DNA of 64,000 nucleotides from Streptomyces sp. CA-278952. Its GTDB lineage: Bacteria; Actinomycetota; Actinomycetes; Streptomycetales; Streptomycetaceae. Every line of letters begins with the position of its first letter. Positions within the stretch are counted from its first letter, which is position 1. Positions 6,530 to 9,763 of the stretch are shown one piece after another. The stretch spans positions 7,785,501-7,849,500 of the forward strand of contig NZ_CP112880.1 in the NCBI RefSeq assembly GCF_028747205.1. Direction: 5' to 3'. The translations under genes and the position numbers were made by a program. Under the pieces are notes generated by a model that worked only from the letters and a program-made list of their open reading frames with translations, did no database searches and was not told the origin of the DNA.

Positions 6530-7570
6530 ATGAAAGCCGTTCAGTACCGAGCCGTCGGCGCCGCCCCCGAGGTGGTCACCGTTCCGGACCCCGAGCCCGG
6601 ACCCGGCCAGGTCCTGCTGAAGGTCACCGCCGCCGGTGTCTGCCACTCCGACATCGCCGTGATGAGCTGGCCCGCCGACCAGATCCCCTTCCCGCTGCCC
6701 CTGACTCTGGGGCACGAGGGCGTCGGCACGGTCGCCGCCCTCGGTGACGGCGTCGACGGCTTCGCCCTCGGCGACTCCGTCGCGGTCTACGGCCCCTGGG
6801 GCTGCGGCACCTGTGTGAACTGCGCCGAAGGCAGGGAGAACTACTGCCTGCGCGCCCAGGAGCTCGGCATCATGCCGCCCGGACTCGGCGCACCCGGCGC
6901 GATGGCCGAGTACATGATCGTCGACGACCCCCGCCACCTGATCCCGATCGGTGACCTCGACCCGGTGAAGACCGTGCCCCTCACGGACGCCGGACTGACC
7001 CCGTACCACGCGATCGTGCGCTCCCGGGCGAAGCTGGTGCCCGGCTCCACCGCCGTCGTCATCGGTACCGGCGGCCTCGGCCACGTCGCGATCCAGCTGC
7101 TGCGCGCCATGACGGCCGCCCGGGTGATCGCCCTCGACGTCACCGAGGACAAGCTCGCCCTGGCCAGGACCGTCGGCGCGCACGAGGCCGTCCTCTCCGA
7201 CGAGAAGGCGGCCGCCCGGGTCATGGAGCTGACCGGCGGACTCGGCGCCCACGTGGTCCTCGACTTCGTCGGAGCGCCGCCCACCGTGGCGACCGCGGGA
7301 GCCGTCGCCCGTGTCGACGGTGACGTCACCATCGTCGGCATCGGCGGCGGCGCGCTCCCGGTCGGCTTCGGCACGCTTCCGTACGGCACCAACGTCAGCG
7401 CGCCCTACTGGGGCTCGCGCAAGGAACTCGCCGAGGTCCTCGACCTGGCCCACGCCGGAGCGGTCGACGTCCACGTGGAGACGTACTCCCTCGACGAGGC
7501 CCCGCTCGCCTACGAGCGCCTCCACGACGGCAGGATCAACGGCCGGGCCGTCATCCTCCCGGGCGGCTGA
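6530..7570 (+). CDS. Zinc-dependent alcohol dehydrogenase, MDR family
   Basis: A 346-residue medium-chain dehydrogenase. Catalytic zinc ligands appear in GVCHSD (Cys ~38) and GHEGVG (His ~63). The structural zinc site is the four-cysteine loop CGTCVNCAEGRENYC (~88-102). The Rossmann glycine motif is GTGGLGHVA (~173-181), and the acidic residue in ALDVTED favours NAD. It catalyses reversible alcohol to aldehyde or ketone oxidation. AGGAG lies seven bases before the ATG. It is last in the TetR-SDR-ADH operon, 69 bases after the SDR, and followed by a hairpin at 7739-7761. Full length for the family. Confidence 0.94.
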   Translation: MKAVQYRAVGAAPEVVTVPDPEPGPGQVLLKVTAAGVCHSDIAVMSWPADQIPFPLPLTLGHEGVGTVAALGDGVDGFALGDSVAVYGPWGCGTCVNCAEGRENYCLRAQELGIMPPGLGAPGAMAEYMIVDDPRHLIPIGDLDPVKTVPLTDAGLTPYHAIVRSRAKLVPGSTAVVIGTGGLGHVAIQLLRAMTAARVIALDVTEDKLALARTVGAHEAVLSDEKAAARVMELTGGLGAHVVLDFVGAPPTVATAGAVARVDGDVTIVGIGGGALPVGFGTLPYGTNVSAPYWGSRKELAEVLDLAHAGAVDVHVETYSLDEAPLAYERLHDGRINGRAVILPGG

Positions 7571-7738
7571 GCCCTCGGGCACCCGGGCGGCCGAGCCACT
7601 CCGGCCCCCCGGGCGGCCGCCTGATCCCTCCGGCATTCCGGCGGAAGCCCGAAGCCCTCCGGCATCCGGCGGCTGAACCTGCCACCCCCCTCGTCGTCGA
7701 ACGTCCGCCCGTCCGCCCCGGCGGCGGCCTTCGGCTCC

Positions 7739-7761
7739 TGCCCGGCGGCCGCCGCCGGGCA
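7739..7761 (+). terminator. GC-rich hairpin ending the alcohol dehydrogenase operon
   Basis: TGCCCGGCGGC and its exact reverse complement are separated by a single base, so about 9-10 bp would pair around a small loop. It lies 169 bases after the ADH stop and 40 bases before the promoter of the leader ORF. The 168 bases between consist of degenerate GC-rich repeats with no gene. Confidence 0.55.
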
Positions 7762-7800
7762 GGCGAGGATATTCCCGGCGCCGGGAGGCCGGTCGGCCGT

Positions 7801-7806
7801 TAGAAT
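7801..7806 (+). promoter_or_regulatory. -10 box of the ABC-F leader transcript
   Basis: TAGAAT lies seven bases before the leader ATG at 7814, which puts the expected transcription start on or within a base or two of that ATG. No good -35 hexamer is visible 16-19 bases upstream. The transcript is therefore probably leaderless, beginning with the leader codons. Confidence 0.45.
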
Positions 7807-7813
7807 GGCCGAC

Positions 7814-7846
7814 ATGGGTTCGTACAGCTACTACTTCTTCCGCTGA
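7814..7846 (+). CDS. Ten-residue putative leader peptide MGSYSYYFFR
   Basis: A complete mini-ORF of start, nine sense codons and TGA. It encodes an aromatic-rich peptide, with five of ten residues Tyr or Phe, ending in Arg before the stop. It lies 172 bases upstream of an ABC-F resistance-type ATPase and is followed by alternative hairpins. Established knowledge: several antibiotic-resistance ABC-F genes (vmlR, msr, lmrC type) are induced by ribosome stalling on a short upstream ORF that changes leader RNA folding. I infer the same here. The ORF is too short to identify by statistics, so its reality rests on the -10 box, the context and the composition. Confidence 0.55.
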   Translation: MGSYSYYFFR

Positions 7847-7854
7847 TTCCCGGC

Positions 7855-7950
7855 CCGGACGGCCGCAGCGCGCCGCACCGCGCGTCCCTCTGAGACGCCC
7901 CGGACGTCGACGTGACCCGCGCGCCCGACGCCGTCCCCTCCGCCGTCCGG
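7855..7950 (+). promoter_or_regulatory. Candidate attenuator with mutually exclusive stems
   Basis: The segment CCGTCCGG-type arm at 7942-7950 can pair either with 7855-7863 (CCGGACGGC, 9 bp), which begins 8 bases after the leader stop codon, or with 7900-7906 (CCGGACG, 7 bp). A ribosome stalled at the end of the leader ORF would cover 7855-7863 and force the second pairing. This is the logic of a translation-coupled attenuator. The region is GC-rich, so chance stems are possible. The downstream gene has its own ribosome binding site (AGGGA at ~8003). Confidence 0.4.
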
Positions 7951-8017
7951 CATCCACGCCCCGCCGCCGCGCCTCCGCGCGCGCCCTCGCGGGCCGTCAC
8001 CCAGGGAAAAGGCACCC

Positions 8018-9763
<1,746 letters not shown>

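Follow-up and report, generated by a model that had tools for sequence, protein, structure and literature searches.

A probable leaderless ribosome-mediated attenuator upstream of an ABC-F gene in Streptomyces sp. CA-278952

MsrDL (MYLIFM), the leader peptide of the ABC-F gene msrD, stalls the ribosome at its stop codon in the presence of erythromycin, and its penultimate residue F5 is reported to clash with the release factor's catalytic glutamine (PMC10314930). The Streptomyces gene lmrC has a terminator with its second upstream open reading frame (uORF2) (PMC8546547), and for the actinomycete Ard1 no uORF could be predicted in one study (PMC10201436). Here we describe the leader of an ABC-F gene in a 64,000-nucleotide stretch of the Streptomyces sp. 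CA-278952 chromosome (NZ_CP112880.1, positions 7,785,501 to 7,849,500; hereafter the window, in which all positions below are counted). The window genome is a single contig of 8.2 Mb. We consider it likely that positions 7801–8017 act as a leaderless, ribosome-mediated translational attenuator, in which a mini-ORF hides the Shine-Dalgarno (SD) sequence of the gene and is kept from doing so by ribosome arrest at its own stop codon.

In the window sequence, a −10 box TAGAAT (7801–7806, fitting TANNNT; all features given here are on the forward strand) is followed by a 7-nt spacer, GGCCGAC, and an ATG at 7814. This ATG opens a ten-codon mini-ORF (7814–7846) that encodes MGSYSYYFFR and closes with a TGA stop at 7844–7846. 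A gap of 171 nt separates the mini-ORF from the ABC-F gene (8018–9763), the start of which is preceded by CAGGGAAAAGG with the SD core AGGGA at 8003–8007. The leader ORF looks leaderless: its ATG falls on the expected start of transcription, because the distances from −10 box to start reported for S. lividans (mean 6.3 nt, PMC8079986) and for the WblC-activated promoters of S. coelicolor (mostly 7 or 8 bp past the −10 box, PMC7157823) fit the spacing seen here.

The same arrangement of TANNNT, spacer, ATG and an ORF of 6–11 codons was found in 78 of the best 80 among 151 relatives of the window ABC-F gene, and a conserved short uORF in the 5′ leader, which marks the uORF class of ARE-ABCF genes, is thus present in 78/80. 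The spacer is 6 nt in 46 of them and 7 nt in 32, and the start codon lies where transcription is expected to start both in the window (spacer 7) and in all 78. The search pattern permitted spacers of 6 or 7 only; a scan that permitted 4–9 nt gave, for the mini-ORFs of L046–L110, these two spacings and no others. At least three F, Y, W or H residues occur in the mini-ORF at the leader position in 77 of the 80 relatives, and L106 (MAFLFV, with two Phe) was entered by name, making 78. The combination of TANNNT, 6–7 nt, ATG and a short ORF with at least three such residues had no off-target match in 1,562,138 strand-bases (both strands of the window and of the loci of the 80 relatives). The stop codon is UGA in 78/78, which alone proves little, since UGA, read by RF2, is the common stop codon in Streptomyces. 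The two relatives without the pattern are L083, which has no such leader, and L084, which carries GTG..VTFHCFP-TGA at the leader position. In L083 (3700–4060) the ABC-F match begins at query residue 22 and follows coding sequence that is by eye regulator-like with a LuxR-type end; the leader is lost.

The leaders split into two groups on the starred branches of a quick tree of 78 ABC-F proteins (the truncated protein of L096 was omitted), and both main ABC-F clades bear the mini-ORF. Type A is the subfamily of the window (the window and 34 relatives, 35 leaders) and type B comprises 44 leaders. In a genome-wide survey, a GSY-type DNA pattern (≤3 mismatches) was found in 10 of 392 Streptomyces genomes and a MAFLFFV-type pattern in 16 of 392, while the reversed-pattern controls for both gave none in the 392. 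All 26 matches, one of which is the window, directly precede an ABC-F gene (66–100% identity), and in 25 of them TANNNT stands 6–7 nt 5′ of the ATG (L125 has TATGGC). The two surveys are not independent, since several genomes are common to both. The mini-ORF also occurs in Micromonospora (L090), Nocardiopsis (L103) and Spongiactinospora (L106); a class-wide search with the MAFLFFV pattern matched 0 of 296 genomes, and at this depth of sampling the type-B peptide is thus not a common one. Among 15 equal-length R-type leaders, the mean pairwise identity of the mini-ORF was 0.94, compared with 0.51 for the flank 26–50 nt before the −10 box and 0.86 near the ABC-F start; the corresponding values among 38 type-B leaders were 0.85, 0.31 and 0.46, the last of which, taken without gaps, is too low where genes differ by indels. 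The original prediction, which had placed a TAGAAT box seven bases before the ATG of a leaderless leader ORF in front of an ABC-F gene, is borne out on these points: the box is there in the sequence, ORF, box and spacing are kept in nearly all relatives, and the mini-ORF is more conserved than its upstream flank.

The peptides themselves are varied, with 32 different kinds among the 78 relatives: MAFLFFV (25), MGSYRFYFFR (7), MGSYYFFR (4), MAFFYFL (4), MGSYHFYFFR (3), MGSYYFFL (3), MRHYFFL (2) and 25 other kinds. The penultimate residue is Phe in all 79 peptides (the window and 78 relatives), and the residue before it is F in 62, Y in 15, H in 1 and L in 1. The last residue is V in 30, R in 27, L in 21 and M in 1, with five changes by parsimony on the quick tree and fewer forced by the starred branches alone. 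The Arg-stop ending that had been singled out earlier is hence just one of four endings (27/79), and the constant feature is the Phe before the last codon.

The mini-ORF is also complementary to the beginning of the ABC-F gene. In type A, AUGGGU (7814–7819) pairs with ACCCAU (8014–8019), reaching into the ABC-F start codon, in 94.4% of cells of 30 aligned leaders (slid controls ≤59.5%); the alignment holds the window and 29 of the 34 type-A relatives, with L040, L043, L051, L095 and L107 omitted. There is one compensatory cell (L047, AUGAG:CUCAU), and as many were seen in 100 of 500 shuffles. The RNAalifold consensus for type A contains 4 of these 6 pairs and otherwise short helices. The 3′ end of the type-A mini-ORF is predicted to pair with CAGGGAAA; in the window this anti-SD arm, CUUCUUCCGCUG (7834–7845), would form a duplex with CAGGGAAAAG (8002–8011) that has two one-nucleotide bulges. 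In type B, the 5′ part of the mini-ORF is predicted to pair AUGGCUUUCC with GGGAAAGUCAU, or the 3′ part pairs instead (ACUUUCUCUG with CAGGGAAAGU; UUCUUUCUCUG with CAGGGAAAGAA). When the SD was permuted, pairing as good as with the own SD was obtained in 18 of 5000 permutations for type A and in 0 of 5000 for type B (L050, L051 and L095 omitted, identical pairs merged).

A ribosome stopped at the UGA was mimicked by barring the mini-ORF and 10 further nucleotides from pairing in 74 of the 79 leaders (L050, L051, L095 and L107 were skipped, and L048 has no SD match). This masking raised the mean predicted SD access from 0.11 to 0.37 in 30 type-A leaders and from 0.09 to 0.28 in 44 type-B leaders, with values of 0.28 to 0.28 and 0.22 to 0.25, respectively, for letter-shuffled leaders. 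Access rose by more than 0.05 in 28/30 type-A and 38/44 type-B leaders and fell by that much in none. In the window, the predicted unpaired probability of the SD core is 0.19 when free and 0.40 when masked. Masking of parts traced the release to the last 12 nt of the mini-ORF in type A, where these nucleotides alone lift the mean access from 0.11 to 0.29, and, for type B, to the 5′ part; the SD was not freed when a control stretch or the 10 nt following the stop were masked. The type-A start codon was also opened on masking, from 0.39 to 0.51.

Codon choice fits this predicted SD pairing, with unpreferred codons sitting at the putative pairing places (L050, L051, L095 and L107 were omitted from the codon, 25-mer and group-swap tests below, and the ABC-F gene starts of L045, L050, L051 and L095 were set by hand). 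GCT is codon 2 in 24 of 25 MAFLFFV leaders, compared with 166 of 6376 Ala codons of the ABC-F genes; GGT is used in 22 of 24 leaders ending FFR, compared with 276/4140 in the ABC-F genes; and TTT is used in 7/7 of the tabulated leaders ending FFL (L107, with TTC, is not in the table), compared with 14/714. Among the 21 leaders ending in L, TTT-CTC-TGA occurs in 16, all of which have the SD CAGGG. The SD AGAGGA is found in two leaders of this kind from different clades (L071 and L107), and both carry TTC-CTC-TGA, by which the pairing with AGAGGA is restored. Random coding 25-mers of the ABC-F genes equal the mean pairing of the own SD region in 3–12% of cases for the groups other than FFR.

Taken together, these features suggest the following sequence of events. 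Transcription from a WblC-type promoter would begin with the A of ATG 7814 or a neighbouring base, and ribosomes would load on the leaderless ORF. In the absence of drug, the ribosome would read MGSYSYYFFR, terminate at the UGA and leave, and the freed mini-ORF RNA would pair with both the SD and the ABC-F start codon (through AUGGGU:ACCCAU and CUUCUUCCGCUG:CAGGGAAAAG), keeping the gene off. If a drug, most likely a macrolide, occupied the exit tunnel, peptide release would be blocked at the conserved ending F-X-UGA. The ribosome stalled there would then cover the mini-ORF, leaving the SD free for synthesis of the ABC-F protein, which would in turn relieve the ribosome. The drug that is sensed is probably a macrolide.

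A number of results weigh against this account. The SD-pairing signal is weak in the window itself, and the case rests on the relatives: 315 of 400 synonymous recodings of the window mini-ORF pair as well or better, the recoding test is negative for the window's own group, and a rank among the best 20 of 400 recodings is reached by only 9/35 leaders of type A and 20/44 of type B. Random ABC-F coding 25-mers match the mean own-SD pairing in 23.6% of cases in the FFR group, and when SDs were swapped among groups (at most 12 loci per group) the own SD was best in 5/5 rows but in 3/5 columns. Three leaders have TTC-CTC without AGAGGA, namely L059 and L060, where the 5′ part does the pairing, and L064, where pairing is poor. 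The type-B start codon is not opened by masking (0.51 to 0.47). In addition, the shuffle and permutation values overstate significance and independence, because the loci are related by descent. As for the precedent, a change of UAA to UGA lowered the inducibility of msrDL, and tylosin and spiramycin are reported to have given no stop-codon stall there (PMC10314930). The RNA folds add further contrary points. No pair of the stem 7855–7863:7942–7950, described next, is changed on both sides in the 30 type-A leaders, the type-B hairpin after the stop likewise has no covariation, and the window leader as a whole folds no better than chance (z = −0.01, with 99 of 200 shuffles folding at least as well), for which reason the whole-leader fold was rejected as evidence.

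The original prediction had placed the switch elsewhere, in a stem between 7855–7863 and 7942–7950 with 7900–7906 competing for its 3′ arm, and this stem is also what a transcriptional attenuator would use, in which the stalled ribosome prevents a terminator hairpin (this stem or an equivalent) and the SD pairing is secondary. The two arms, CCGGACGGC and GCCGTCCGG, are exact complements and pair in 85.0% of cells of the 30 aligned leaders (slid controls ≤46.2%), the inner part in 92.7%. In type B, the stop is immediately followed by a hairpin that hardly varies, is paired in 97.6% of cells and has TTTCT after its inner part (42 of the 44 leaders aligned; L063 and L070, which have inserts, omitted). 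Terminators are moreover used by lmrC and msrD (PMC8546547, PMC10314930). Against such a terminator, stem conservation does not prove pairing, since there is no covariation, and a simple scan of 7570–8100, which misses T-poor terminators, found no terminator-like site. Masking the 10 nt after the stop also does not free the SD, though termination is not addressed thereby. We thus regard transcriptional attenuation as an unlikely main mechanism; transcription termination may have an added role. Of the earlier proposal for the fold, the complementarity and conservation of the stem have stood, as has the conservation of the peptide across relatives, while the compensatory changes that were looked for in the stems are lacking. 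The competing arm CCGGACG (7900–7906) can compete for 7944–7950 in the window, but is contiguous in just 1 of the 30 aligned leaders, the window's own, and was rejected as a general part. The idea of a fold switch exposing the ABC-F message is not supported in detail for the proposed stems, and survives in another form, in that the SD is freed in silico by covering the mini-ORF; the pairing of the mini-ORF with SD and start codon appears to be the better-supported switch.

Two further explanations keep the leader but give the peptide another role. In a drug-blind translation gate, the mini-ORF RNA would repress via the SD, any slowing of the ribosome would open it, and the peptide sequence would be irrelevant. 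The unpreferred codons and the SD pairing do point to selection on RNA, and complementarity to a purine-rich SD comes naturally with UUC-rich codons. Such a gate is nevertheless improbable, because the penultimate residue remains Phe in 79/79 although the pairing part differs (3′ in type A, 5′ in type B), and the 25 MAFLFFV leaders are invariant as peptide at the FFV end and not at the main pairing part. Still harder to credit is an attenuator for aromatic amino acids, in which the ribosome stalls on hungry Phe or Tyr codons. There are runs of such codons, and S. lividans has amino-acid attenuators with leaderless leader peptides (PMC8079986); but the gene here encodes an ABC-F protein and not a biosynthetic enzyme, Tyr is missing from MAFLFFV, MAFLFV contains just two Phe, and what is constant is the place relative to the stop (F-X-UGA), not the number of Phe or Tyr.

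Returning to translational attenuation by stop-codon arrest, the promoter of the leader may add a transcriptional layer to it. A WblC/WhiB7-type promoter was taken to have GAAAWY 3 bp 5′ of the −35, as reported for WblC-activated promoters of S. coelicolor (PMC7157823), and a spacing of 16–19 to TANNNT. In the window, GATATT (7768–7773) matches GAAAWY at 5 of 6 letters and lies 3 nt 5′ of the −35 position GGCGCC (7777–7782), itself a poor match, 18 nt before the −10 box; a simple scan of 7570–8100 gave no sigma-70-like promoter. At least 5 of 6 GAAAWY letters are present in 26/35 type-A leaders (13 perfect; letter-shuffled mean 0.35, most 2) and in 5/44 type-B leaders (shuffled mean 0.9, most 3). 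Since the box is at the right distance, WblC may bind here, and the window gene may be among the antibiotic-stress genes that WblC controls, in which case the leader would add a second level of regulation. Type-B leaders (L059–L109) have instead a conserved inverted repeat, GAGGCGAGACG...CGTCTTG, within the 24 bases before the −10 box, which is absent in the window's subfamily and which we take to resemble the operator of a TetR-type repressor.

The window gene encodes a ribosomal-protection-like ABC-F ATPase of 581 aa, which scores 394 bits against NF000355 (ribosomal protection-like ABC-F; cut-off 380). The best-scoring named family is NF000171 (TlrC/CarA/OleB/SrmB), with 711.1 bits, below its cut-off of 800, and a macrolide target is therefore likely but not established. 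The nearest protein on the quick tree is from Streptomyces anulatus (L031), with that of S. griseus (L105) among the next. No Rfam family reaches its gathering score in the window. In the type-A leaders L034–L038, L043 and L110, insertions with extra inverted repeats lie between stop and SD, and their leaders are 201–249 nt long, compared with about 170 in the window. For ABC-F genes on large plasmids, 7 of 8 matches were taken and 420 nt upstream scanned (H6, of the same species and identity as H5, was left out). The leader is present in both relatives at 67–69% identity (MAFLFFV and MAFFYFL) and was not found within these 420 nt in 4 of the 5 relatives at 52.7–57.8%. In the fifth, L145, TAAGAT is followed by a GTG-start mini-ORF, VITAFAAAGFYYI, which we do not trust as a leader. 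Because the distant plasmid relatives lack it, the leader is confined to one clade rather than to the whole TlrC/CarA family. L144 and L145, from a Streptomyces sp. NBC_01224 plasmid and an S. griseofuscus plasmid, each have a more distantly related TlrC/CarA-type ABC-F gene that adjoins macrolide glycosyltransferase genes and is without this leader.

The same genome contains a second ABC-F gene of this kind (L008:1225–2823, 392.8 bits to NF000355, cut-off 380; leader and gene L008:1128–2823, about 6552700–6554400), preceded by TAGAAT, 7 nt and ATG..MAFLLVH-TAG. The MAFLLVH-type pattern (≤1 mismatch) was found in 30 of 101 Streptomyces genomes, with 0 for the control, and all 12 matches taken as loci directly precede the orthologous gene (91–98% identity). 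Among the variants, GCA, GCC and GCT and also CTC and CTT are exchanged, and the peptides are MAILLVH, MAFLLVH, MAFLLAH, MAFLLLH and MASLLVH. With this second leaderless peptide (mostly MA[F/I]LLVH) in view, control of ABC-F genes by leaderless sensor ORFs may be general in Streptomyces.

More tentatively, these leaders may form a minimal class of drug sensor that is absent from the literature searched: a leaderless ORF of 6–11 codons in which the same 21–36 bases would be transcript start, arrest peptide (F-X-UGA) and anti-Shine-Dalgarno sequence, with both duties binding the codon choice. We hold this wider claim a little less firmly than its opposite. A search of open-licence papers only, which is weak evidence of absence, brought up no ABC-F uORF described as leaderless and drug-sensing; none of the six peptides sought there as words was found either. 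If the class is real, the 32 natural peptides in 78 relatives would constitute a variant set of stop-codon arrest, from which the reading rule of a drug-dependent release block could be derived, and it would raise the question of how leaderless initiation behaves with the sensed drug in the ribosome.

The known systems place the window leader as follows. Like the window gene, lmrC, tiaA and are5sc of Streptomyces are ABC-F genes controlled by uORFs, and they are induced by drugs through ribosome-mediated attenuation (PMC8546547, PMC12421871). Unlike the window ORF, tiaAL (MVGDDDISG) and are5scL1 (MLV) each come with a ribosome binding site, and ribosomes are reported to be arrested on their start codons by lincosamides, streptogramin A and pleuromutilins but not by erythromycin (PMC12421871). 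Control of CplR, VmlR, VmlR2 and LsaA also combines a uORF with a hidden SD, the SD being hidden by a terminator hairpin in cplR, but the peptides differ (MR[I/M], MIN, MK[L/Q] and MAGN; PMC10201436). LeuL, TrpL, IlvL and others of S. lividans share a leader ORF at the transcription start and control amino-acid genes instead (PMC8079986), and the uORF attenuation of wblC/whiB7, likened here by description only, is a drug-responsive actinomycete case that controls a transcription factor (PMC7157823). The nearest precedent is MsrDL, with which the geometry F-X-stop is common and no homology is claimed; MAFHYFM of Nocardiopsis (L103) ends in FM, as MsrDL does. MsrDL has its own ribosome binding site and a UAA stop and acts on an intrinsic terminator (PMC10314930), and none of that kind was found after the window mini-ORF by the same simple scan, blind as it is to T-poor terminators. 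The present ORF, by comparison, has a leaderless look, ends in UGA in 78/78 relatives and has the SD as its predicted target. The known Streptomyces ABC-F leader ORFs reviewed here are each read from a ribosome binding site, and the drugs they respond to are lincosamides, streptogramin A and pleuromutilins. What sets this locus apart is the apparent lack of such a site, the invariant Phe before the last codon, and the packing of promoter, putative sensor and putative repressor within about 45 bases.
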